The notes under the pieces are model-generated. The model had not been told where the DNA came from. It made no database searches and saw nothing but the letters and a program-made list of their open reading frames with translations. Both the position numbers and the translations under genes were made by a program. Below, one piece after another: positions 10,363 to 34,278 of a DNA stretch of 64,000 bases; position 1 is the stretch's first letter; each line of letters opens with the position of its first letter. The stretch is taken from the NCBI GenBank assembly GCA_021825585.1, contig JAKAGT010000003.1, forward strand, positions 1 through 64,000, written 5' to 3'. Origin of the DNA: Bacteroidota bacterium. GTDB taxonomy: Bacteria > Bacteroidota > Ignavibacteria > Kryptoniales > JAKASW01.

Positions 10363-12249
10363 ATGACTTGCACGGTTAGTGTGATCAAAGACCATTCGAG
10401 TACACCTAGATTCACTGAGGTAAGTGAAGACCTTTTCGTGCAACACAACGGTCCACGCTACCGGACACCCATTGATCTCCAACTGACCCCGGATCAACCG
10501 TTGCGATTTCTGGTCGTTGGAGGTTGCCTTGCACAGCCGTTTCCTGAGGTCGCCTCGATTATCAATCCTGAATTCAGCGGTGACTTTATTCTGCTTAACA
10601 ATTTCGACCCCTTTCCTGAAATTCCGCAGGAAACAATATCGCGATACGATTTTCAGATCATCCACCTCCCTCTGCGATCTATCTTGGGAAATGCGTACTT
10701 CCAACTGCCGGATGACGTCGAGAGCCACGAAGAATTCCTGGCACAGACTCAGGATTACCTTGCCCGCTATTTGGCCAACGTCATGAAGTTGAACACGGAA
10801 TACAAGCTCTTGACATTCGTGCTCGGATTTATGGTACCACAGCAGAATCCGCTGGGGCGATTGCAGCCGCGATACGATCTCCGCAACATCATGTACTTCA
10901 TGGAACGGCTTAACATGTTCCTGGCTTCCGAGGTTGGCAGGAGAGAAAACGCGTACTTTGTGGACGTCGACCAGATTTCAAGCGGCATTGGCAAGAAAGC
11001 CGTCCAGGACGACGGGGTGTGGTCATTTTCACATGGGACGACGTTGAGCGACGGCGACCACGACCACGACCTGAACCGCCTCGAGCCGCCCCCCCCGATG
11101 CAGCATCATTATTCCGCCCGCTGGGTCGAATTTTTCGAGGCGCTGCTTTATGAGATCTTTGCAATGCATCGTACACTCAAACAACAGGATATCGTTAAGT
11201 TGGTCGCTGTTGATCTCGATGATACTTTGTGGCGCGGAGTAGCAGCTGACGGAACGCTGGGAGCCATCGAGGGGTGGCCCATGGGATTCATGGAGACGCT
11301 TCTCTATCTAAAAAAGCGCGGCATTCTGCTGGCGATCGTCAGCAAGAACGACGAACAATTCATCCGAGGAAAGTGGAATGATATAGTCCAGGGCCAGATC
11401 GCTCTTTCGGATTTTGCAATTCACAGGATCAATTTTTGCAGCAAGGTGGAGAACCTCGCCGAAATTATTCGGGAAGTGAACATCCTTCCGAAGAATGTTG
11501 TAATGATTGACGACAACCCCGTGGAACGCGCATTGATTCAGGCAGGAATGCCGGACGTGCGCGTATTGGGAAGTCATCTTTACTATTTGAAAAGAATTCT
11601 TCTCTGGGCCTCGGAGACCCAACAACCGATAATCACGCGGGAATCCAGTCGGAAAACCGAGATGGTGCAGGCTCAATTGGAGCGTGAATCTGTCCGCAGG
11701 AAACTGTCGCACGAAGAGTTCCTCCAATCCCTCCATCTTCATGTGGCTGTGTCGATCCTTCATGATACCAGTGACGTGCATATGGGCCGGGCTCTTGAAC
11801 TGTTCAACAAAACCAACCAGTTCAACACCAGAAGCGAGCGCTACACATTGGAGCAATGCCAAAGGAACTTTGCCGCCGGCGAGCGTCTCTATGTCCTGCA
11901 GGCGGAGGATCGCTTCACGCAATACGGATTGATCGGCGCGGCATGGGTGAATGGAAACCGTATCGAACACATGGTGATGAGTTGTCGAGCTCTCGGCTTG
12001 AACATCGAGGAATCCTTCATGGCCTTTCTGGCAAGCCAGCTTGTCCTGGAAAATGAATCGACAATGGAGGGGATATTGCTACTTACCGACGCGAACATTG
12101 CCTGTCGGCAGCTTTTCGCCAATAACGGGTTTGAGAACACGACGGACAACCCATCAATCTGGTCGCGACAGCTTGCAGCACCATTTCCTTTCCCGACTCA
12201 CATCTCCTTCACGGCGCCCGGCATAAAGGAAAACGTTGTTCTTCTCTAA
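10363..12249 (+). CDS. HAD-IIIC family phosphatase / FkbH-like protein
   Basis: A 628-residue protein with an N-terminal SGNH-like region (~40-270), a HAD-IIIC catalytic core and a C-terminal acyltransferase-like extension. The HAD nucleophile motif is 'AVDLDDTLWRGV' with Asp near 283, followed by 'AIVSKNDEQF' (motif II) and 'NVVMIDDNPVERALI' (motif IV). FkbH-type proteins load a glyceryl unit onto an acyl carrier protein in polyketide pathways or act in surface-glycan modification. No PKS gene is nearby, so the role is open. It is a single plus-strand gene converging on the giant minus-strand gene; the ~180 bp between them shows no clear terminator. Confidence 0.85.
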   Translation: MTCTVSVIKDHSSTPRFTEVSEDLFVQHNGPRYRTPIDLQLTPDQPLRFLVVGGCLAQPFPEVASIINPEFSGDFILLNNFDPFPEIPQETISRYDFQIIHLPLRSILGNAYFQLPDDVESHEEFLAQTQDYLARYLANVMKLNTEYKLLTFVLGFMVPQQNPLGRLQPRYDLRNIMYFMERLNMFLASEVGRRENAYFVDVDQISSGIGKKAVQDDGVWSFSHGTTLSDGDHDHDLNRLEPPPPMQHHYSARWVEFFEALLYEIFAMHRTLKQQDIVKLVAVDLDDTLWRGVAADGTLGAIEGWPMGFMETLLYLKKRGILLAIVSKNDEQFIRGKWNDIVQGQIALSDFAIHRINFCSKVENLAEIIREVNILPKNVVMIDDNPVERALIQAGMPDVRVLGSHLYYLKRILLWASETQQPIITRESSRKTEMVQAQLERESVRRKLSHEEFLQSLHLHVAVSILHDTSDVHMGRALELFNKTNQFNTRSERYTLEQCQRNFAAGERLYVLQAEDRFTQYGLIGAAWVNGNRIEHMVMSCRALGLNIEESFMAFLASQLVLENESTMEGILLLTDANIACRQLFANNGFENTTDNPSIWSRQLAAPFPFPTHISFTAPGIKENVVLL

Positions 12250-22834: not shown

Positions 22835-24028
22835 ATGGGACCATTCGTACCTGATCTGATTTCGGATCAACTCAATCTCGTCGTCGCGCTCCTCCTCGGG
22901 ATCGCCTTCGGCTTCGTGCTCGAGCAGGCCGGATTCTCTTCGTCGAGGCGGCTGGCGGGCGTGTTCTACGGTTATGATTTCACGGTACTCCGTGTGTTCT
23001 TCACCGCGGCGGTAACAGCAATGAGCGGAGTCCTCATACTCGGACACTTCGGAATGCTGGACACCGATGTTATTTATGTGAACCCGACATGGCTCCTCCC
23101 CGGAATAGTGGGCGGCGTGATAATGGGAGTCGGGTTCATAATCGGAGGCTACTGCCCCGGCACGAGCGTGTGTGCGGCGGCGATAGGGAAAGTCGACGCA
23201 ATGTTCTTTGTCGGCGGCGGGCTGCTAGGAGTGTACGCATTCGGAGAGCTGTTTCCACTGTACGACAAGTTTTACACGTCCACGTCGCTCGGCCCGGTGA
23301 AGGTATTCGACTCCCTCGGGATGTCGCAGGGACTCTTCACGTTCCTCCTCATCGTCATGGCGGTCGCCGCGTTCGCGGTCACTACAATAATAGAGAAGCG
23401 CGTGGACAAGGAATCAGCTCCCTCGCTGCAGTTCAAACCGGTCAAGCACGCTGTAGTCGGGAGTTTCGCCGTCTTGCTCGGGGTAATATTCATATTCATG
23501 CCCGATCACAAGTCTGGCCTGATTGAGAGGGTGAGCGGCCAGGCATACGCTGCCGTGCACCCGGTGCAGAAGATGGACGCAGACGAACTCGCGTTCCGTA
23601 TTGTCGACCACGAGTCGAACATCAGGATTATCGACATCCGTTCGCCTTTGGACTTCGGTTTGCTTTCGCTTCCAGGTTCGTACAACGTCCAGCGAAACGA
23701 TCTCTTCGGGAAGGACTGGGTCGCGACGTTTTCACGGAGACACCTGAAGAAGGTGGTCGTAGGCGATAACGAAGAGGACGAACGTACGGCGTATTACCTC
23801 CTTCACGAGCTTGGATATGAGAACCTCGCGATTCTTCGCGGCGGAATGGGGGCGTTCAAGAGGACGATCCTCGATTCCAATGTGTTTGTCCCGACCGGCT
23901 CGCGGTGGGACGGAGACGTCAGGGATTTCCGGGTGAATGCTCGTACCACGATTCTCAAGATGATCGCCGAGGCAAAGAACAAGCCGGCGAAGGCGATCGT
24001 CAAAAGGAAAATCCAGGGGGGATGTTAG
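22835..24028 (+). CDS. YeeE/YedE sulfur transporter fused to a Cys-less rhodanese domain
   Basis: 397 residues. The N-terminal ~190 form the second YeeE/YedE half, with about five helices and the motif 'GGYCPGTSVCAAAIGKVDA' bearing the transport cysteines. After one more helix (~207-223), residues ~245-350 form a rhodanese-like domain ('IRIIDIRSPLDFGLLSLPG', later 'AYYLLHELGYENLAILRGGM'). The active-site loop reads 'VVVGDNEEDERTA', so the catalytic cysteine of normal rhodaneses is absent. The domain could bind sulfur carriers or regulate transport, but it should not be a sulfurtransferase. This is the last gene of the merR-cytochrome-transport operon; a strong terminator follows 22 bp later. 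Confidence 0.9.
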   Translation: MGPFVPDLISDQLNLVVALLLGIAFGFVLEQAGFSSSRRLAGVFYGYDFTVLRVFFTAAVTAMSGVLILGHFGMLDTDVIYVNPTWLLPGIVGGVIMGVGFIIGGYCPGTSVCAAAIGKVDAMFFVGGGLLGVYAFGELFPLYDKFYTSTSLGPVKVFDSLGMSQGLFTFLLIVMAVAAFAVTTIIEKRVDKESAPSLQFKPVKHAVVGSFAVLLGVIFIFMPDHKSGLIERVSGQAYAAVHPVQKMDADELAFRIVDHESNIRIIDIRSPLDFGLLSLPGSYNVQRNDLFGKDWVATFSRRHLKKVVVGDNEEDERTAYYLLHELGYENLAILRGGMGAFKRTILDSNVFVPTGSRWDGDVRDFRVNARTTILKMIAEAKNKPAKAIVKRKIQGGC

Positions 24029-24050
24029 AAGCGGAAACAGGGCAAGCAAG

Positions 24051-24072
24051 AAGGGGGCTTCGGCCCCCTTTT
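24051..24072 (+). terminator. Rho-independent terminator after the sulfur operon
   Basis: Perfect 8-bp stem AAGGGGGC/GCCCCCTT with a TTCG tetraloop followed by TT, 22 bp after the YeeE-rhodanese stop. Confidence 0.9.
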
Positions 24073-24126
24073 CTGTCTCTGGGGAGAGACCCCCCGCTGT
24101 GTGAGGTTGTCCCGAAAGTCGCTATA

Positions 24127-24145: not shown

Positions 24146-24586
24146 AGTGTTAAGCGATGTCCGGAGATCAAATGGGGCCGGTCAGGAGGGGCGATGAAAT
24201 TCTCCTTGCGTCGACGGAATTTTTTGCATACCTTGGGAACAGGCCGCGCATCGTGGTACAATCAAACGGCTGTTCTTCCATGGCACGGCAACGAGGATAT
24301 GGCTCCCGCAGCGGGAGAAGATAGATACAGGCATAGCGGAGTGATTACGGAGATTCCGCTGCCCCGGACGGCAACGGAAGCGGCAAAGGGAATTTAAGCC
24401 CTCACGAAACCCAATCAGCGTCGGACAATCGCAGATCGCGGGCGAGATGTCGTTGCCCCAGGCCGATCAAATTGCGGTTTGATCGACATGTGATACGCGA
24501 TTCGCCTGGTAGCATAAAGCGCCATGAAAGAGATCGGATTGCCGGGAATGGAAGTGGATGGAAGTTCGGTCGACTCTGAATCGATG

Positions 24587-25017
24587 GAAACGGCGAGGAA
24601 ATCCTCGAAAACGAGGAGGATTCTGGGAAATGAGAACGCTTGTAGAGACGATGCGTTTGCATTGGGATCGAAACGGTACGGGGTTTTTGAGACCTATTCG
24701 AATCTCAAGAAATGAATTCGAAAACGGAGAAATGAATTCCGATAATCAAGAAATGAGATTGGATACGGAGAAACGAAGTTGGAAGACGGGGAAATGGAAT
24801 TGGGACGTCGTGGAATGCGACATTGGTTGCCGGAAATGACGGTAGATGTGACGTAATGTCACTGAATGAGAAGAAATGCAGTTGGGATGAACCGCGAGAG
24901 GGGTGGGATTCGTGGAATCGAATGGTGTGCCGGCGGATATGACAAAGTATTTGGCGGAATGGAAAGAGGCGAGTCGCGAAGAGGTATGAAACGAGAGAAA
25001 TGAAGAGAATGCAATCA
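24587..25017. repeat. Degenerate tandem array with ~20.6-bp period, purine-rich
   Basis: A GAAATG-like motif recurs at 24709, 24729, 24750, 24770, 24791, 24813, 24833, 24853, 24873, then less perfectly at 24894, 24915, 24936, 24957, 24978 and clearly at 24997. Spacings are 19-22 bases, averaging about 20.6, which is near two DNA turns. Weaker units continue upstream to about 24587 (24607, 24627, 24670). A rough consensus is GAAATGnAnTTGGnnnCGGn. The period is not a multiple of three and no frame is conserved, so it is not a coding repeat. The plus strand is strongly purine-biased. It lies within the 1.1-kb gap 24029-25174, upstream of the leader at 25078. Function unknown. Confidence 0.65.
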
Positions 25018-25077: not shown

Positions 25078-25138
25078 CAGGAGTTTTCTCCTGTCGGACG
25101 GTTTTGCCGGCAGGAGATCGAGCAGGCACACTGCCTGC
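25078..25138 (+). promoter_or_regulatory. Structured 5' leader with mutually exclusive hairpins
   Basis: Three adjacent stems can be drawn. Stem 1: CAGGAG (25078-25083) with CTCCTG (25088-25093). Stem 2: CTCCTGTCGG (25088-25097) with CCGGCAGGAG (25107-25116), ten pairs including one G-U. Stem 3: GCAGGCA (25122-25128) with TGCCTGC (25132-25138). Stems 1 and 2 share the CTCCTG strand and cannot coexist; that strand could also pair with the AGGAG of the Shine-Dalgarno at 25161-25166. There is no T-run. This layout suggests a translational switch; no known riboswitch class is recognised. Confidence 0.5.
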
Positions 25139-25174
25139 GATCCAGAACATTTACAGGGAAAGGAGGTGAATCGT

Positions 25175-25876
25175 ATGAGTAAATATCTGGAGAACAAGAA
25201 GTCCATGTACTTGGGCGTGAAGACCTTCTTCGCGGAGAACATGGACAAGGCAACATCATTGCCGGCGCTCACAAAAGCGATAGCCGACTTCAACCAGGTC
25301 GTAGGGCTGATTGAGACCAAAGCCCTCGAGGTTGACACCGCGAGTGCGGGAAAGGCTAAGAAGAAGGCCAACGCGGAGGAGGAGCTATTGACGGCTCTTA
25401 TTCCCGTTAAGTCTGCCTTAGCCGCATACGCTTCGGAGAAGAACGATTCGGAGCTGAAAGCGCTGACAGAGATAACGGAATCGCAACTGAGGAAGATGCG
25501 GGATACCGATCTGCAGAAAAAGGCGGAAGGCATCCTGAAAAATGGTGAAGAAAGGCTGACCTTAGTGGGCGATTATGGTCTGACGCAGATGAGGCTGACC
25601 ACGTTGCAGGAGAAATCGAGAGCGTTCTCAGATGCTACCGGAGAGCGCGAAGCCAGCGTAGGAAAGCGCGTCGGTGCCAGATCAGCCTTGATGGAACTGT
25701 ACGACAGGGCTGATCGTATCCTGGTGGAGCGCATTGACAACCTGATGAAGCAACTGCGCGACTCGGATCCGCAGGTGTGCGAGGAGTACGATTCAACGCG
25801 TATAGTCCGTGAAGCGGGCTTGAGGCACAGACCGATTGCGCCGCCTGATCAGCAGTCGTCACAGAGACAGCCATAG
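25175..25876 (+). CDS. Hypothetical all-helical cytoplasmic protein
   Basis: A 233-residue protein with no signal peptide or membrane segment; it is rich in Ala, Lys, Glu and Leu and predicted by eye to be almost entirely helical. The C-terminal ~25 residues are Pro/Gln-rich. No known domain is recognised. The start is ATG 25175, preceded by a perfect AGGAGG eight bases upstream; a GTG nine bases earlier overlaps that site and is unlikely. It is a monocistronic gene, bounded upstream by the hairpin leader and the 20.6-bp array and downstream by a strong terminator. The excellent translation signal and elaborate leader suggest a real, well-expressed gene. Function cannot be stated. Confidence 0.8.
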   Translation: MSKYLENKKSMYLGVKTFFAENMDKATSLPALTKAIADFNQVVGLIETKALEVDTASAGKAKKKANAEEELLTALIPVKSALAAYASEKNDSELKALTEITESQLRKMRDTDLQKKAEGILKNGEERLTLVGDYGLTQMRLTTLQEKSRAFSDATGEREASVGKRVGARSALMELYDRADRILVERIDNLMKQLRDSDPQVCEEYDSTRIVREAGLRHRPIAPPDQQSSQRQP

Positions 25877-26255: not shown

Positions 26256-26651
26256 ATGCCTCTTTTAACGGAGAACAGATATCACTTCCTTCATACCGAT
26301 GTAAATCGGATCGACGATGAATCGATGCGTTCGCTATTCACAGAAATTGTGGGACTGAGAGGCGAGCCGCTGCAAGGGTACGTTATCCATTTCCTGGTGC
26401 GGTCCCTTCACCCGTACACTACGATGGAGAAGAGAAGGCCATTCGACAAGTCCGAGTTCCTGCTTCAAAATTATCTTCCAGGCAAAGTGGGCGATTTGAT
26501 GAAAACGGAAATCTACAAGTTGTGTATTGACCTTGTCCGCCTGGCAAAGCTGAAGAGCGCTGAGGATATGGACGGGATGAAGCTCTATGTGCTGCTTAAC
26601 AGGACGGTGCCCCGCGTGGAGAAACGTAAGAAAGACAGAGGAAGATATTGA
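26256..26651 (+). CDS. Hypothetical protein upstream of mod
   Basis: A 131-residue soluble protein without a recognised domain. It is basic toward the C-terminus ('RVEKRKKDRGRY') and has a conserved-looking core ('RGEPLQGYVIHFLVRSLHP'). AGAGGAG upstream supports ATG 26256. Its TGA overlaps the ATG of mod by one base, so it is translationally coupled to the type III methyltransferase and driven by the promoter at 26121. It may be an accessory protein of the restriction-modification system; this is inferred only from position. Confidence 0.75.
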   Translation: MPLLTENRYHFLHTDVNRIDDESMRSLFTEIVGLRGEPLQGYVIHFLVRSLHPYTTMEKRRPFDKSEFLLQNYLPGKVGDLMKTEIYKLCIDLVRLAKLKSAEDMDGMKLYVLLNRTVPRVEKRKKDRGRY

Positions 26652-28756
26652 TGGACGGCAAATCTGCTGACATCAGACAGGCTCAACTCGACAGGCTGAG
26701 AGAACTTTTTCCCGAAGTTGTCTCCGAAGGTAAGATAGACTGGGAAAAGCTCAGGCTGACACTTGGCGAGGACATCACGATCGACAACGAGCGGTATGTC
26801 CTCAACTGGGCGGGGAAGTCCGACGCGTTCAGGGCGATACAGACGCCGACGACGGCAACCCTGAAGCCGCAGCCGGAACAGTCGGTGGACTTTGAGAACA
26901 CCCGGAACATCTTCATCGAAGGCGAGAACCTGGAAGTCCTGAAGGTGCTTCAGAAATCGTACTACGGCAAGGTTAAGATGATCTGCATCGACCCGCCGTA
27001 CAACACTGGCAACGACAGCTTCATCTATCCCGACAAGTTCAGCGAGAGCAAGGACGAATATCTACGACGCATCGGCGACAAGGACGAGGCGGGCTACCTG
27101 ACCAAGGAAGGTTTCTTCAGGAAGAACAGCAGGGAGAACGGGCAGTACCATTCCAACTGGCTCTCCATGATGTACCCTCGGCTCTTTCTCGCGAGGAATC
27201 TCCTGCGCGACGACGGGGTGATCTTCGTTTCGATTGATGATAACGAGGTGCACAATCTGCGGCTGATGATGAATGAGATTTTTGGGGAAGAGAATTTTGT
27301 GGCGAGTGTTGTTTGGCAAAAGAGGACCTCACCTGATGCAAGGCTTCGACTTGGGCCAGCTCACGACTATCTTCTTGTTTATTGTCGGGCGATTGAAATG
27401 TCAGGGGATGCATTCAGGTTGCTGCCTCTTAGCGAGGAGCGGCAGGAGGCTTATGGGAACCCTGATAACGATCCACGTGGGCCATGGGCATCCCGCGATA
27501 TGACTGGCCAGGTTGGTCATGCAACTCCAAGTCAATTCTATGAAATCACAACGCCGGCTGGTGTGAAGTATTCTCCGCCCGAAGGTCGCTGTTGGGCTAT
27601 TTCGAAAGGTACAGTGCAAAAACTGGTCTCCGATAATAGAATTTGGTTTGGAAAAGATGGCAAGACCCGTCCCAGGTTGAAATTATTTCTTTCGGAAAGT
27701 AAAGGCACGCCTAGCTGGACATGGTGGGCAAACGAGGAAGTGGGGCACAACCAGGAAGCAACGAAGGAACTTAATGCGCTTATGGGAATGGGGGAAGTAT
27801 TTGATAACCCAAAACCGACACGCTTAATAAAGCGGATATTGCAGCTGTCAACGTTCAATGAGAATTCTGACATCGTTCTTGACTTCTTTGCTGGCAGCGG
27901 CACGACGGCGCAGGCTGTCATGGAGCTCAACAAAGAAGACGGTGGGAATAGGCAATTCATCCTGGTGCAGCTTCCCGAGAAAACGGATGAGGAGTCGGAG
28001 GCGCACAAGGCGGGGTATAAGACGATTGCGGATATTTGTAAGGAACGGATAAGAAGGGCTGGCAGGAAAATGTCTGAACCGCTGATTACGCAGATGGCTG
28101 CAGATAACGCTGATAAAAAGAAAAGACAGCTGACGATGGAGTTAACCGCTTCGAGTGCGGATAAAGAATCAGCGGCATCAGATTCATCAAAATTATCAGC
28201 GGTCGGATTTAAGGTTTTCACGCTTCAGCCGTCGAACTTCAAAGTCTGGCGAACAGACACGATAGAGAACGGCGACGACCTTGTGAAACAGATGGATGCC
28301 TTTGCCGACCCGGTGCGAGCGGGCTCTGATGCCGACGCGATGGCGTGGGAGATACTTGTCAAGTCGGGGTACGAGCTGACGACAAAGATGGAAAAGCTAA
28401 AGCTGGGTGTGGCTACACAAAGTGGAGCGAAAAACACACCCACTATGTCATTGCCGCATGATTCAAGCGGGAATCCAGCAGTTCCCCGGGATGGATTCCC
28501 GATAGGAGCGTTCGGGAATGACAGTACCGTGTCTTCAGAAAAGGGGCAGAATAATAGTGTCCCCATGTATTCCATAGCTGGCGGGGAAGTGATCCTTGCC
28601 CTTGAGAAGATTTCGCAAAAGGCTATAGATGATGTCGTGAAGATGAAGCCGAAGTTGTTCATATGCCTCGACCGCCTCTTCGCAGGCAACGATCAGCTCA
28701 AGACAAATACCGCGCTGCAGATGAGGGACGCGGGAGTGGAATTCAAAACTGTCTGA
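26651..28756 (+). CDS. mod: Type III restriction-modification methyltransferase (Mod)
   Basis: A 701-residue adenine-specific DNA methyltransferase of the beta class. The catalytic motif DPPY comes first ('ICIDPPYNTGNDSFIYPDKF', ~112-131), then a target-recognition region (~220-390), then the SAM-binding motif 'VLDFFAGSGTTAQAVMELN' (~409-427). 'IFIEGENLEVLKVLQKSYYG' before DPPY is typical of type III Mod. The C-terminal third contains a ~78-bp palindromic repeat read in frame (28446-28523) and another low-complexity stretch (~477-515). The res partner lies 2.8 kb downstream at 31606, separated by inserted genes. The start at ATG 26651 overlaps the upstream stop. The site recognised cannot be predicted. 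Confidence 0.93.
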   Translation: MDGKSADIRQAQLDRLRELFPEVVSEGKIDWEKLRLTLGEDITIDNERYVLNWAGKSDAFRAIQTPTTATLKPQPEQSVDFENTRNIFIEGENLEVLKVLQKSYYGKVKMICIDPPYNTGNDSFIYPDKFSESKDEYLRRIGDKDEAGYLTKEGFFRKNSRENGQYHSNWLSMMYPRLFLARNLLRDDGVIFVSIDDNEVHNLRLMMNEIFGEENFVASVVWQKRTSPDARLRLGPAHDYLLVYCRAIEMSGDAFRLLPLSEERQEAYGNPDNDPRGPWASRDMTGQVGHATPSQFYEITTPAGVKYSPPEGRCWAISKGTVQKLVSDNRIWFGKDGKTRPRLKLFLSESKGTPSWTWWANEEVGHNQEATKELNALMGMGEVFDNPKPTRLIKRILQLSTFNENSDIVLDFFAGSGTTAQAVMELNKEDGGNRQFILVQLPEKTDEESEAHKAGYKTIADICKERIRRAGRKMSEPLITQMAADNADKKKRQLTMELTASSADKESAASDSSKLSAVGFKVFTLQPSNFKVWRTDTIENGDDLVKQMDAFADPVRAGSDADAMAWEILVKSGYELTTKMEKLKLGVATQSGAKNTPTMSLPHDSSGNPAVPRDGFPIGAFGNDSTVSSEKGQNNSVPMYSIAGGEVILALEKISQKAIDDVVKMKPKLFICLDRLFAGNDQLKTNTALQMRDAGVEFKTV
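28446..28523. repeat. Palindromic interspersed element inserted in frame within mod
   Basis: About 78 bp starting TGTCATTGCCGC and ending GCGTTCGGGAATGACA, with internal GCGGGAATCC and GGATTCCCG arms. The ends are inverted repeats (TGTCATT/AATGACA), and the whole resembles the widespread GTCATTCCCG palindromic repeats. It is read through by mod, adding about 26 residues (MSLPHDSSGNPAVP and onward). A length divisible by three keeps the frame. Confidence 0.7.
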
Positions 28757-28821
28757 ACCGCCACCGCTGATGACGCTGATAGAATGATGACCGCAGAAAA
28801 TTGTGAAGAAGTGATGGGCTG

Positions 28822-29028
28822 ATGATAAAAGAAGAGTATAAATATTCCGAGATAACGGAGAAGATCATCGGATGTGCTATGAAGGTGCATAGCGCCCTTG
28901 GCAATGGCTTCCAGGAAGTGATTTATCAGAGAGCCTTGGCGATTGAGTTGAGCAATGCGGGTGTCGAATTCGCCCGGGAGGTCGAGATGCCGATACATTA
29001 CGGTCGAATTCAAAAGAGAATTCGATAG
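28822..29028 (+). pseudogene. GxxExxY family protein, truncated at the C-terminus
   Basis: 68 codons. 'EKIIGCAMKVHSALGNGFQEVIYQRALA' is the N-terminal hallmark of the GxxExxY family (PDDEXK-like small proteins), where G-x-x-E-x-x-Y is conserved (GFQEVIY). Family members have about 125 residues including a later nuclease-like core; here the frame ends after 'EMPIHYGRIQKRIR', just past the first third. The sequence then continues in another frame into the AlbA_2 gene, so a deletion or recombination joined the two. Probably not functional as a nuclease-like protein. Confidence 0.7.
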
Positions 29029-30277
29029 AGAGAAAGATGACAAGGTCAGACTGCTGGATTTCTGTCGAGTGGTTATCGGACTCCTGAATTCAGATACAGG
29101 TGGTGTCATAGTGTTTGGCATTGCGAACGACATTAACGAGAACGTGCAAGATCCGGTGGAAAAGTTCATGGTCGGGCATGCTATCGCGAGAGCAAGAATC
29201 GAAGAGCTAGCAGGCTATCTTAAGGAGAGAATCTGGCCCCAAGAAGTCTGGATGATCCACATAAAACAATTGCCAATTTCAAAAAGTGAAGCCATTACGA
29301 CTGTTTATGTCGGCAGAGGAAGATCGAAACCCTACCTGTATTACGTGCCTAATCATCCACAAAACGGAGTTAGGAGCTTTGCAAGAGGATCGCGAGTGAC
29401 ATATGAATTAGAAGCCCCACAGTTGCACCGTTTTCTTATTGGGGGCAGCGGACCATACCCAATCACAGAAGAGCAGCCTCATCGCCCGAAAGCGGCCAAG
29501 AAAGGCCAGGTAAGTCCAAATGCAGAAGCGGAAGCAGAGCAATCGAAGGAGAGTAAGGGAACGAATGTGAGTTCTCTCCTTGAGGATAATTTCAAAGAGG
29601 TCACACAGATAATAAAAGACCCAGAACAATTTGGTCTTATAACTGTCTGTGTTTGCCCTTCGTCGCAGAATCGCGTTTCTGATGAGGAGATTGAGAAATT
29701 GCTTCAACCAGCCCAAAGAAATGTGAAACGGATGGAAGAAATATGGTACGGAGAAATGCAGGTTTCACAGAAGTGGTACAGAAGACTTTTTGTTCCATAT
29801 CAACTCTCCGAAGAACGGAAATGCACATGGGTAATAACGTGTCAGCGGAAAACAGGCATAATGTTCGTTAATAGTCTGGTAGATGCATACATGCAGGGCA
29901 AGAGATATCTTAACCCCTTCTATCTATCCTATCAGATTCAAAGGCTTCTTCAAATGGCAAATGAATTGTACCAAGGGCAAGTCGGTTCTATGAAATTAAC
30001 AGTGGACTTCAGGTACATTGAGACATTCGGTTATCTCACGCTACTCTTCGGCAGCGTAGAGTCAATCAAACCTTATGTTGCGTACGCCGGACCGATTGAA
30101 CGAGAGGTCAAAGCAGAGAACATTTACGGCGGTGAAAGGGCAGATATACTTATGCCAACTGTACAGGAGTGTATGACTGAAGTGGCTAAAATATTCGGTC
30201 TGATGAAACTGCCAAATCCACTCTCAAACCCAAAAGGTGAGATGATATTCGTTGAGTACTTTAAAGGGATTCGATGA
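28955..30277 (+). CDS. AlbA_2 (Schlafen-like) domain protein of unknown role
   Basis: About 440 codons; the N-terminus overlaps the truncated GxxExxY frame and the true start is unclear (ATG 28955 or GTG 28961). The AlbA_2 signature begins almost at once: 'VEFKREFD' (~17-24), then 'CRVVIGLLNSDTGGVIVFGI' (~36-55). A linker rich in charged residues (~165-210) separates this from a C-terminal domain (~215-440) with no recognised family. AlbA_2/Schlafen domains bind nucleic acid or nucleotides and are frequent in defence islands. Position between mod and res suggests an accessory function in restriction or phage defence. The N-terminus may have been trimmed by the same event that truncated GxxExxY. 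Confidence 0.65.
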   Translation: MRVSNSPGRSRCRYITVEFKREFDREKDDKVRLLDFCRVVIGLLNSDTGGVIVFGIANDINENVQDPVEKFMVGHAIARARIEELAGYLKERIWPQEVWMIHIKQLPISKSEAITTVYVGRGRSKPYLYYVPNHPQNGVRSFARGSRVTYELEAPQLHRFLIGGSGPYPITEEQPHRPKAAKKGQVSPNAEAEAEQSKESKGTNVSSLLEDNFKEVTQIIKDPEQFGLITVCVCPSSQNRVSDEEIEKLLQPAQRNVKRMEEIWYGEMQVSQKWYRRLFVPYQLSEERKCTWVITCQRKTGIMFVNSLVDAYMQGKRYLNPFYLSYQIQRLLQMANELYQGQVGSMKLTVDFRYIETFGYLTLLFGSVESIKPYVAYAGPIEREVKAENIYGGERADILMPTVQECMTEVAKIFGLMKLPNPLSNPKGEMIFVEYFKGIR

Positions 30278-30290
30278 CAGGAAAAGAAAC

Positions 30291-30312
30291 GCCCCGTTTT
30301 CGCGGGGCGTCG
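30291..30312 (+). terminator. Hairpin after the AlbA_2 gene
   Basis: Perfect 8-bp stem ACGCCCCG/CGGGGCGT with a TTTTCG loop, 14 bp after the stop. There is no T-run, so it is a weak terminator or a transcript-end stabiliser. Confidence 0.55.
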
Positions 30313-30399
30313 GACCAATGCTACTCACATTGGTGCTGTTAAACTTCATTGAGAATATAGAGTGAAATTTCAGTGAAGACAATAGACGAAAGGTTCCCG

Positions 30400-30602
30400 T
30401 GCCGCACCTACGGTGCTCGATATGATTTTGGTGTTGAGTTCTATATACATTTCGTCCCTCCGGGACTCAACGCAGACACTGATGGAAGAGGCGAATGCGG
30501 TGGAACATGGCGAAGCCGGATCGGAAACTTATTCACTCCGGTAGGAGCGAAATGTTTGTAGAAAAGGAAATGCCGAAGGAAACAAGCTCCGTCAGGGGCG
30601 GA
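30400..30602. repeat. REP/BIME-like repeat, copy A
   Basis: Contains a series of small hairpins: GCACC-TAC-GGTGC, GTCCC-TCC-GGGAC, GCTCC-GGTA-GGAGC and GCTCC-GTCA-GGGGC. The stretch around ATACATTTCGTCCC is roughly the reverse complement of GGAGCGAAATGTTTGT, so REP units are arranged head to head as in BIMEs. About 128 bp is nearly identical to copy B (two mismatches). Confidence 0.75.
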
Positions 30603-30634
30603 ACGAGAATGCCGGGAGAGAAACAGACCCGCTG

Positions 30635-30836
30635 TGCCGCACCTACGGTGCTCGATTTCGTATTTTGGGTTTGTTTCTATATACATTTCGTCCCTCCGGG
30701 ACTCAACGCAGACACTGATGGAAGAGGCGAATGCGGTGGAACATGGCGAAGCCGGATCGGAAACTTACTCGCTCCGGTAGGAGCGAAATGTTTGTAGAAG
30801 ATAAAATGAGGAAGAAAATAAGCCCCGTCAGGGGCG
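30635..30836. repeat. REP/BIME-like repeat, copy B
   Basis: Second copy with the same order of hairpins as copy A and a nearly identical central block. It ends with GCCCC-GTCA-GGGGC just 10 bp before the transposase start. Confidence 0.75.
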
Positions 30837-30845
30837 ACACAGTTA

Positions 30846-31325
30846 ATGGCTAACACGTTCACACAACTGTATATTCAAATCGTCTTCTCGGTCCGAAGCC
30901 GGGCTTCGCTAATCAAAGATCAATGGCGCGAAAACCTTCACCGTTACATAACCGGAATCGTGCAAAACAAGGGACACAAAATGCTGGCAATCAACTCCAT
31001 GCCCGACCATATCCACATCTTCGTCAGTATGAAGCCGGATGCCGCGCTTTCAGATTTGGTCCGCGACATCAAATCCAACTCCTCGAAATGGATAAACGAT
31101 GAAAAGTCGAAACACGTTAAGTTTGAATGGCAGGAAGGATACGGCGCCTTCTCATATTCCCATTCGCAAATCGGTGACGTGATTTCGTATATCCGGAACC
31201 AACAGGAACATCATAGAAAGAAGCCATTCAGAGAAGAATATCTCGACTTCTTGAGGAAATTCGGCATTTCTTATGATCCTAAATATCTTTTCGATATTGA
31301 GGAAGAAGAATCAAAACAAGCATGA
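30846..31325 (+). CDS. tnpA: IS200/IS605-type Y1 (RAYT-like) transposase
   Basis: 159 residues. The HUH nicking motif is present in 'NSMPDHIHIFVSMKPDAALS' (His-Ile-His) and the catalytic tyrosine lies in 'IGDVISYIRNQQEHH' (~Tyr118). Length and layout fit TnpA of the IS200/IS605 family. The gene is flanked on both sides by REP-like hairpin repeats (copies A and B upstream, C downstream) rather than by classical IS ends. That arrangement is characteristic of REP-associated tyrosine transposases (RAYTs). The frame is intact. It sits between AlbA_2 and res, so it or its repeats may have entered and split the restriction-modification operon. Confidence 0.9.
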   Translation: MANTFTQLYIQIVFSVRSRASLIKDQWRENLHRYITGIVQNKGHKMLAINSMPDHIHIFVSMKPDAALSDLVRDIKSNSSKWINDEKSKHVKFEWQEGYGAFSYSHSQIGDVISYIRNQQEHHRKKPFREEYLDFLRKFGISYDPKYLFDIEEEESKQA

Positions 31326-31389
31326 TATGCAAATTATATTTTACTCTAGCACAGGAACGTGGAGGGTCAAAAATGATTGAAAAGATATA

Positions 31390-31590
31390 TGCCGCACCTA
31401 TGGTGCTCAATGTTGTTATCCTTTGAAGCTACATACATCTCGTCCCTACGGGACTCAAAGCGAGGTATAATAATGTCTGCGAAGATGCCATGGTGATACA
31501 GGCAAGATCTCGGAGGACTGGTTGCTCCGTAGGAGCAAAATGTCTATAGATAAGAAAAGAAAAGGAATTGAGCTCCGTTAGGAGCGAAAC
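31390..31590. repeat. REP/BIME-like repeat, copy C (diverged)
   Basis: Starts TGCCGCACCTATGGTGCTC, includes CGTCCCTACGGGACTC and TCCGTAGGAGCAAAATGT, and ends GAGCTCCGTTAGGAGCG. Same order of hairpins as copies A and B but much more diverged. It lies between the transposase and res, ending 15 bp before the res ATG. Confidence 0.65.
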
Positions 31591-31605
31591 AAGAATATCG
31601 TCAAT

Positions 31606-34278
31606 ATGAAACTCCAATTCGACTCGCATCAGGACTTCCAGATACAGGCAATCCAGTCTGTTGTTGACATATTCGAAGGTCAGCCTCTCAGCACGGGCGA
31701 TTACGAGTTCTCGCTCCAGCAAGGAGATTCGAGTCTTGCTTTCACGGAGAACGGCGTCGGCAATGCAATCAGGCTCACTGAGCAGGAGATACTCAAAAAC
31801 GTGCAGGGAGTCCAGAAGAAAAACGGGCTTGATGTGTCGCCGGAGCTGCAGGGCCTCAACTTCTCCGTCGAGATGGAGACCGGCACGGGGAAGACATACG
31901 TTTATCTCCGTACCATCTACGAGCTCAACAAGACGTACGGTTTCAAGAAATTCATCATTGTCGTCCCGAGCATTGCCATTCGTGAAGGGGTTCTTAAGAA
32001 TCTTCAGATCACACACGACCATTTCCAGGACTTGTACGGGAGGGTTCCGCTCACCTACTCTGTCTACGATTCCAGGAACGTCTCGCTCCTCCGCGGATTT
32101 GCTCTCAGCAACACGATTCAGGTCCTCGTGATCAACATCGACTCTTTCGCGAAAGATGAGAATATCATCAACAAACCGAACGACAAGCTTACAGGCAAGC
32201 GTCCCATAGAATTCATCCGGTACACGAACCCGATTGTCATCGTGGATGAGCCGCAGAACATGGAAACCGACCTGAGGAAGCAGGCTATCGCAAACCTCAA
32301 TCCCTCATGCACGCTTCGCTATTCGGCGACTCACAGGGACGTTTACAACCTGGTGTACAAGCTCAGCCCCGTAAAGGCGTATGATCTGGGGCTGGTCAAG
32401 CAGATCGAGGTCGATTCGGTAGTCAGCGAGGACAGCTTCAATCAGGCGTTCGTGAGGCTGGAGGGAATAAAGACACAGAAAAGAAAACCGCCCAGAGCAA
32501 AGCTCAGCTTCGATTATGAGGGTGCGGAAGCGGTGTTGCGGAAATCTGCATATGCTGGCAGCGGTGACAATCTGTACGATCTCTCGAATAAGCGAGAAAT
32601 GTACCGCGAAGGCTACGTGGTCAATGAGATCGATGCAGAGGAGGGGTTCGTTGAGTTCTCAAACGGGACGAGGCTCGAAGTGGGGGAGACAAAGGGCGGT
32701 CTTCAAGATGATATAATGAAGGTCCAGATCAGGAAGACGATCGAGGAGCATTTCCGCAAGGAAGCGGTACTCAGGCCTAAGGGAATCAAGGTGCTGTCGC
32801 TCCTCTTCATTGACAAGGTGAAGAACTACCGCTCATACGACGACGGTGCGTCCTCAAAAGGCAAGTTTGCGGTTTGGTTTGAAGAGATATTCCGAGAATA
32901 TGCCGCAAGGCCCGAATACTCGGAGGTGATGCCGTTCGATGCTGAGCGGGTTCACAACGGCTACTTCGCGCAGGATAAGAAAGGCGTACTGAAAGACTCG
33001 CGCGAGGGGAGAACTTCGGAGGGCGACACGGAGGCCTATGAGCTGATCATGAAAGACAAAGAGCGTCTCCTCGACCTGAACGAGCCGTTGAGGTTTATCT
33101 TCAGCCATTCAGCGCTGCGTGAAGGTTGGGACAGTCCGAACGTCTTCCAGCTTTGCACGCTGAACGAAACAACGTCGGAGCTGAAGAAACGGCAGGAAAT
33201 AGGAAGAGGACTGCGGCTGGCGGTCAACTCCGACGGCAACAGGGTCTTCGAGAGGGCGGTGAACAGGCTCACCGTCGTTGCCAACGAGAGCTATGAGCAA
33301 TTTGCGAAGAAGCTCCAGAAGGAGATTGAAGACGAAACCGGGGAGAAATTCGAGGGAAGGATAAACGACAAGAACCAGAAGAAGAAGGTAACTCTCCGTA
33401 AAGGATACGAGGCGGACCCGAAGTTCATTGAGCTGTGGGAACGGATACGCCAGAAGACGACCTACAGGGTGGAGTATCAGACGCTCGAATTGGTAAGCAG
33501 AGCCGCAAGACGAGTCGGCAAAATGGCCGAGATTCTGGCGCCGCGGATCGTCGCACAACGTACCAGGGTTCTCATGGATTCCGGAGGAGTATCCGGGGAG
33601 ACGGCTTCGACGAGGTTCTATGAGCCGGAATACGGCAGCGTCGCAATCCCGGATATCGCCGGATACATAGAGCAAAGGACGCATCTGACGCGATCGACAA
33701 TCATGGAAATCCTGAAACAGTCGGGGAGACTGCCCGATTGCCTGAAGAACCCGCAGCTGTTTCTCGATAGCGCAGTACACGAGATCAAGACGGAATTAGA
33801 ATCGATAATGGTAGACGGTGTCAAGTACCAGAAGATCGACAACGACTATTACGAGATGCGCGAGTTTCAAACAGAAGAAATTGAGGAGTACCTGACGAAC
33901 CTTTACAGCGTCAGGAACAAAGAAAAGACTATATTCGACGGTATCGAGATCGATTCTCTCTCAGGACCGGAGCGGAAGTTCGCGGAGGCCTGCGATAACA
34001 GCGAGGATGTCGAATTCTTCTTGAAGCTGCCGCGGTGGTTTGTGATAGAAACGCCGGTCGGCAAATACACTCCCGACTGGGCTTTGCTGCTTAAGAGGGA
34101 CAAGAAGTTGTACTTTGTCGCTGAGACGAAGTCCACCTTGGACAAGAGTAAGCGGCGTGAGGGCGAGAACCAGAGAATCGAATGCGGAAAAAAGCACTTC
34201 AAAGAACTGAAGGAAGTGTATTTCACCGAGGCGACGAAGCTCGAGGATGTGGAAAGAGCTGCGAGTCAGATGGAGTAA
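31606..34278 (+). CDS. res: Type III restriction enzyme, Res subunit
   Basis: An 890-residue superfamily 2 helicase/translocase with endonuclease. Walker A is 'VEMETGTGKTYVYLRTIYEL' (~86-105), Walker B is 'IVIVDEPQNMET' (~210-221), and motif VI appears in 'KRQEIGRGLRLAVN' (~528-541), preceded by 'SALREGWDSPNVFQLCTLNE'. The C-terminal nuclease is suggested by 'YTPDWALLLK' and 'YFVAETKST' (~820-845), a PD-(D/E)xK pattern. Res acts with Mod to translocate on DNA and cleave at unmodified sites. A REP-like repeat ends 15 bp before the ATG, so its original promoter or coupling to mod may have changed. All core motifs are intact. Confidence 0.93.
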   Translation: MKLQFDSHQDFQIQAIQSVVDIFEGQPLSTGDYEFSLQQGDSSLAFTENGVGNAIRLTEQEILKNVQGVQKKNGLDVSPELQGLNFSVEMETGTGKTYVYLRTIYELNKTYGFKKFIIVVPSIAIREGVLKNLQITHDHFQDLYGRVPLTYSVYDSRNVSLLRGFALSNTIQVLVINIDSFAKDENIINKPNDKLTGKRPIEFIRYTNPIVIVDEPQNMETDLRKQAIANLNPSCTLRYSATHRDVYNLVYKLSPVKAYDLGLVKQIEVDSVVSEDSFNQAFVRLEGIKTQKRKPPRAKLSFDYEGAEAVLRKSAYAGSGDNLYDLSNKREMYREGYVVNEIDAEEGFVEFSNGTRLEVGETKGGLQDDIMKVQIRKTIEEHFRKEAVLRPKGIKVLSLLFIDKVKNYRSYDDGASSKGKFAVWFEEIFREYAARPEYSEVMPFDAERVHNGYFAQDKKGVLKDSREGRTSEGDTEAYELIMKDKERLLDLNEPLRFIFSHSALREGWDSPNVFQLCTLNETTSELKKRQEIGRGLRLAVNSDGNRVFERAVNRLTVVANESYEQFAKKLQKEIEDETGEKFEGRINDKNQKKKVTLRKGYEADPKFIELWERIRQKTTYRVEYQTLELVSRAARRVGKMAEILAPRIVAQRTRVLMDSGGVSGETASTRFYEPEYGSVAIPDIAGYIEQRTHLTRSTIMEILKQSGRLPDCLKNPQLFLDSAVHEIKTELESIMVDGVKYQKIDNDYYEMREFQTEEIEEYLTNLYSVRNKEKTIFDGIEIDSLSGPERKFAEACDNSEDVEFFLKLPRWFVIETPVGKYTPDWALLLKRDKKLYFVAETKSTLDKSKRREGENQRIECGKKHFKELKEVYFTEATKLEDVERAASQME

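Follow-up and report, generated by a model that had tools for sequence, protein, structure and literature searches.

Phased 21-bp repeat arrays upstream of a helical-protein gene family in Bacteroidota: a possible relocating module

The stretch of DNA analysed here (the window; 64,000 nucleotides from a Bacteroidota bacterium) contains, in a non-coding gap, a tandem array that represents the degenerate extreme of a far broader pattern found across Bacteroidota. In this pattern, 8 to 20 direct repeats, 21 bp apart, lie directly upstream of a gene for a helical protein, and the array and the gene duplicate and relocate as one block of ~1 kb. That the two form one relocating module was not foreseen in the preliminary description of the array. 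Our best explanation, to which we give about an even chance, is a mobile module in which a fast-evolving helical protein is accompanied by its own phased direct-repeat recognition array, in the manner of an iteron or a centromere.

The preliminary description placed GAAATG-like motifs at 15 successive positions with spacings of 19-22 bp, which agrees with a free chain fit (15 units, spacings of 18-23 bp, mean 20.57 bp). The tandem array is real and covers 24696-25017 of the plus strand, with a mean spacing of 20.6 bp. The autocorrelation of 24680-25017 peaked at lags 41, 103, 21, 20, and 83 (Z of 5.0, 3.8, 3.8, 3.4, and 3.2, respectively), and its maximum was reached by none of 500 dinucleotide shuffles; this confirms the array by the shuffle check that had been proposed. 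The wider interval, 24587-25017, likewise exceeded its shuffles (p = 0.004), and a chain with spacing free between 14 and 30 bp beat 99% of them (p = 0.01). The signal comes mainly from 24680-24860, which alone gave autocorrelation lags of 21, 41, 20, and 62 (0 of 500 shuffles), and Tandem Repeats Finder (TRF) reported periods of 20-21 at 24696-24807. The periodicity of 24860-25017 alone was not significant (p = 0.35). The same holds for 24500-24690 (p = 0.57), so the weaker upstream units that had been proposed were not recovered. The other check proposed, Fourier analysis, gave only borderline power at 20-21 bp alone (p about 0.06-0.07), because drifting spacing smears the signal. With steps of 18-23 bp, the window array has lost the strict spacing of its relatives and is probably a decaying copy of the module. 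Rfam gave no match to it. The features of the locus are collected in Table 1.

Table 1. Features of the array and the adjoining gene in the window
Feature	Position	Strand	Description and basis
Array, best-preserved part	24696..24860	+	Direct repeats of ~20.6 bp, consensus AGAAATGAAATTGGAAAACGG; TRF and autocorrelation
Array, decayed continuation	24861..25017	+	GAAATG-like units at 18-23 bp; chain fit
TGAC-N5-GTCA palindrome inside the array	24849..24861	.	TGACGTAATGTCA; sequence search
Two adjacent leader hairpins, array to RBS	25088..25138 (25088-25116, 25122-25138)	+	MFE -43.3, z -3.5
Shine-Dalgarno AAGGAGG	25160..25166	+	Sequence
Array-associated gene, 233 aa	25175..25876	+	All-helical protein; homologue searches

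The leader hairpins are not consistent across the family (mean leader z -0.67). Among 68 related arrays, the palindrome is matched exactly only in that of the window; with at most one mismatch it has 24 matches versus 5.2 in shuffles, many of them concentrated in few arrays, and it is a minor feature of uncertain standing.

The preliminary description had suggested looking for such arrays in front of homologues of the gene at 25175; this search found strong arrays (TRF score of at least 120; period of 20-22 or 41-43) directly upstream of 59 of the 83 homologues. Downstream of homologues, strong arrays were found in 1 of 81 cases. In a scan of 827 kb, 5 of 494 generic open reading frames, taken regardless of family, had a strong array upstream; three of the five are family loci and two represent one orphan array. 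When the score was lowered to 90, 66 of the 83 homologues had an upstream array, and several of the remaining 17 still have a weak one. The arrays upstream of the homologues have the same period and quite different sequences.

The 233-aa protein had no family match in Pfam, NCBIfam, or PHROGs. Its AlphaFold model is all-helical (mean pLDDT 83, pTM 0.53) and found no convincing or outstanding match among PDB and viral structures; no DNA-binding fold was recognised in the family protein, and the mean pI of the family is near neutral, at 7.2. At least one family match is present in the window's genome and in 10 of 12 other genomes of the same genus, and copies per genome reach nine (G308). The family is found in 19 of 395 genomes sampled across Bacteroidota and in 25 of 61 genomes of one other genus, g109. 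Its named relatives belong to Candidatus Kryptoniota and unclassified Bacteroidetes MAGs, and phage, plasmid, and viral collections yielded none. In profile comparisons, the window group was linked both to the g109 group (E = 1.6e-37) and to a more distant one (E = 3e-9), some of whose members have fibronectin-like tails. Five distant members (L047, L048, L049, L044, and L058) bear extra C-terminal beta-rich tails, fibronectin-like or other, and keep the upstream 21-bp array.

The spacing was determined in the 68 arrays by a chain fit in which all jumps from 17 to 26 bp were equally likely. Exactly 21 bp separated the units at 598 of 722 steps (124 differ), which bears out the suggestion that spacing is kept while the sequence drifts. 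When jumps were freed to 14-30 bp, 543 of 752 steps were still 21 bp and shuffled arrays were flat. Among 52 arrays selected for regular spacing, 11 non-21 steps stood against 3013 substitutions (departures from the column consensus), i.e., 0.4%, a ratio to be read as a lower bound; neutral non-coding DNA would probably accumulate far more small indels. In the paralogues L082/L083, the arrays are ~87% identical without a gap, and the leader directly after the array has gaps. A minisatellite, produced by slippage and drifting neutrally, would account for the tandem layout, the variable copy number, and the homogeneity of some arrays (L047, L039), but the near absence of small indels and the single period across a phylum-wide gene family speak against this origin, which we consider extremely improbable.

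Twenty-one bp corresponds to two helical turns and also to exactly seven codons. A coding heptad repeat was ruled out, since unit conservation has no 3-bp harmonic; arrays L003, L007, L008, and L020 contain stops in all six frames, and the occurrence of 41- and 43-bp arrays also counts against it. The array had been described as neither coding nor CRISPR, and both statements hold: the units are contiguous, 50-90% alike, and without spacers. RNA folding of the arrays stayed at shuffle level on both strands (mean z about -0.5), and palindromes in general were fewer than in shuffles (52 vs 71). Given that exact 21-bp steps occur in non-coding, unstructured DNA, B-DNA helical phasing fits the spacing best. 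The conserved columns had a 10.5-bp power of 1.96 versus 1.05 when permuted, and p was 0.16 for h2/h1 against a smooth null; a 10.5-bp periodicity in unit conservation is thus only suggestive.

Paralogues within a genome carry different units. Across modules, the units resemble each other more the closer the proteins are, down to about 40% protein identity (p of 3e-6 and 2e-5 versus a reverse-complement control, against which the relation is absent). The pair L008/L019 has saturated 4-fold sites (0.26 observed vs 0.27 expected) and a unit similarity of 0.79; L028/L030 is similar (0.34, 0.28, and 0.67, respectively). In other pairs the silent sites are unsaturated, and shared ancestry alone could therefore explain the likeness there. 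These sequence comparisons indicate selection on the unit sequence that is linked to the protein, and the pairs whose units stay alike although silent sites are saturated are further evidence against slippage with neutral drift. The preliminary description had offered phased protein binding or DNA shape. Helical phasing fits the exact steps, and from it we infer protein binding; since the unit sequence itself is conserved between related proteins, more than DNA shape is involved. In many arrays (L007, L015, and L018, for instance), the 21-bp period is kept at a unit match of only about 56-60%, which is loose for a sequence-specific site and counts against cognate binding.

A single motif common to all arrays was rejected: the weak core MAWTG occurs on the sense strand in only 15 of 46 arrays, versus 7 antisense (null 2.9, maximum 8). 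Purine-richness was likewise dismissed as a defining trait. It had been noted for the plus strand of the window and is present there (24600-24999; GC skew 0.39-0.51, AT skew 0.19-0.31), but it is a local bias shared by a minority of the related arrays, 27 of 68 being over 55% purine and 17 under 45%. The array could also be a cis element, enhancer-like or DNA-bending, that acts through DNA shape or is recognised by a host factor and not by the downstream protein. Its position directly upstream of the gene, the core MAWTG/AAATG that is partly common across arrays, and one orphan array without the family gene (L107) would agree with this. However, a single host factor could not recognise by sequence all the different units found among the paralogues of a genome, and neither the dependence of unit similarity on the linked protein nor the joint movement of array and gene is in its favor; we judge this reading unlikely.

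The limits of the module were defined by comparing its copies. In the paralogues L074/L075 and L082/L083, homology runs from the 5' end of the array to just past the stop codon, and the flanks are unrelated. Only the module block is common to the cross-species pairs L146/L147 (88%), L147/L148 (87%), and L134/L135 (74%); L142/L143 and L149/L150 have one flank in common as well. Seven relatives share synteny with the window locus up to 24026-24075, near the preceding gene's terminator and just before the module. The L083 module starts directly after its neighbour's terminator and is absent behind the same gene in the closest relative, where that neighbour gene is 96% identical. Such boundaries would also be expected if the array served as a transposon-like end, its repeated sites marking one side of a ~1-kb element that its own protein, or an enzyme acting in trans, mobilises. 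Against this, no terminal inverted repeats were recognised at the module ends, which were inspected by eye, no transposase-like family or fold was found in the module, and the array is restricted to one end. Target duplications were not seen. A clean empty site was not found either: the L083 neighbour is conserved to its terminator, after which both sides differ. We regard a transposon end as very unlikely. A GC-rich stem-loop (CCGCCGCTGC...GCAGCGGCGG) lies at the module's 5' edge in L146, L148, and L160 (~1090-1150) and is kept in different flanks.

A comparable arrangement was found in DUF6261 (PF19775), a Pfam family without assigned function, in which 12 of 16 loci have a 41-42 bp array directly upstream (L206, L207, L209, L211-L214, L216, L069, L070, L072, and L073). 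DUF6261 proteins (240-280 aa) are helical-looking and, like the family described here, occur in Bacteroidota in several copies per genome, downstream of arrays; the two families differ in that the DUF6261 arrays are mostly palindromic, with centres ~20.5 bp apart, whereas the array family has 21-bp direct repeats. In L209 and L213, two different palindromes alternate. Profile homology between the two families was not detected (hhalign E = 0.15), and the window protein did not match the DUF6261 Pfam model, with one distant family member at E = 0.07. We lean slightly towards the view that relocating ~1-kb modules, in each of which a fast-evolving helical protein has a private two-turn array, occur phylum-wide and were reached at least twice, in the 21-bp family and in the 41-42 bp arrays of DUF6261, and that they constitute a new protein-DNA (or protein-RNA) array system.

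The DUF6261 arrays bear on the main rival of our explanation, an array that acts as RNA. In this view, a protein-binding motif of 21 nt would be present 8-20 times in a long transcribed 5' leader or in a separate RNA. The position of the array, always 5' of the gene, and the sense bias of MAWTG are consistent with this, and many of the DUF6261 arrays, being palindromic, would form stable RNA folds (z of -7 to -14). But the arrays of the 21-bp family do not fold and their strands behave alike, nothing in RNA requires exact 21-nt steps, and in the DUF6261 stems (23 GU, 54 broken, 7 double changes) GU wobble is not clearly above chance. On balance, we consider an RNA-level binding array rather unlikely.

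In the mobile module that we favor, the array would be the recognition half and the helical protein encoded immediately downstream the other half. Protein units in one orientation would bind successive 21-bp direct repeats and touch each other, and, with a spacing of two helical turns (21 bp), all would lie on one face of the DNA. Rigid stacking would forbid indels, and the unit sequence could drift if the cognate protein drifts along. The nucleoprotein complex formed in this way would regulate the gene of the module, the maintenance or movement of the module, or both. The lack of a recognised DNA-binding fold, the near-neutral pI, the members without a detectable array, the only suggestive 10.5-bp signal, and the lost spacing of the window copy count against this explanation.

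Several known systems resemble the module in part. Iterons are found in plasmid replicons such as RK2, R6K, P1, and F, where direct repeats of 17-23 bp period adjoin the initiator gene; the module has repeats in this period range next to its linked gene. As in iterons, the repeats are about two helical turns apart, directly upstream of the (here putative) binder gene, with cognate specificity between relatives. Unlike them, the module has no Rep domain (Pfam, NCBIfam, PHROG), is chromosomal, dispersed, and multi-copy, comprises 8-20 or more units, and has no plasmid or phage match; the window locus itself lies on a 274-kb contig whose adjoining genes are syntenic in relatives, with no plasmid match. 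Partition centromeres (the 43-bp repeats of sopC, parC of R1, and parC of pSK41) also link a phased repeat array to the gene of a small DNA-binding protein, as the module probably does, but the module is chromosomal, its protein is unrelated to any solved family, and no NTPase is seen alongside. No ParA/ParM/TubZ NTPase occurred among the window neighbours scanned, nor as a recurrent partner among the families listed (25 of 91; 20 loci). Tn7-type transposon ends carry 22-bp TnsB sites and resemble the module in that sites of roughly two turns are repeated at a single end of a mobile element; the module, however, lacks a transposase gene and known end sequences. The SV40 and HTLV-1 enhancers contain 21-bp repeats, through which Tax of HTLV-1 acts on its own promoter. 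They too are two-turn direct repeats upstream of a promoter, but they are few, fixed in sequence, from animal viruses, and unrelated.

The best-known bacterial repeat arrays are mostly CRISPRs, iterons, centromeres, or minisatellites. If the explanation is true, a recurrent array-plus-protein system that is open to testing would be added to bacterial genomes, and a first handle on DUF6261 would be obtained. The claim of novelty is bounded by the library scans and one collection of papers, mostly without subscription journals and preprints, in which we found no description of such arrays or gene family and nothing relevant on 21-bp arrays in bacteria or on DUF6261. The near-perfect copies elsewhere (L047, L039, L022, and L038) make binding and phasing experiments simple.

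The neighbourhood of the module is mixed and includes some defence genes; among the families listed (25 of 91; 20 loci), no recurrent partner gene or defence island was seen. In the window, a likely type III restriction-modification gene pair adjoins the module at 26648-34278. Between its DNA methylase gene (likely Mod) and its large helicase-like gene (likely Res, 31606-34278) lie a gene with an AlbA_2/Schlafen domain (28955-30277) and a Y1 transposase of the IS200 type (30846-31325). Elsewhere in the window's own genome, contig C78 bears the orphan array (L107, 6841-7200), which has 21-bp units with an AAATG core and no adjoining family gene, as well as a C-terminal family fragment at 11777-11980. 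A second array of 22-bp units (AAGGTGAAACGTAGAGACGTGA, 8.8 copies) lies 1-192 bases past the family stop codon in L036, and L039 has, just past the stop, a 7-bp tandem array (GATTTCG, 13.6 copies), whose period is a third of 21.
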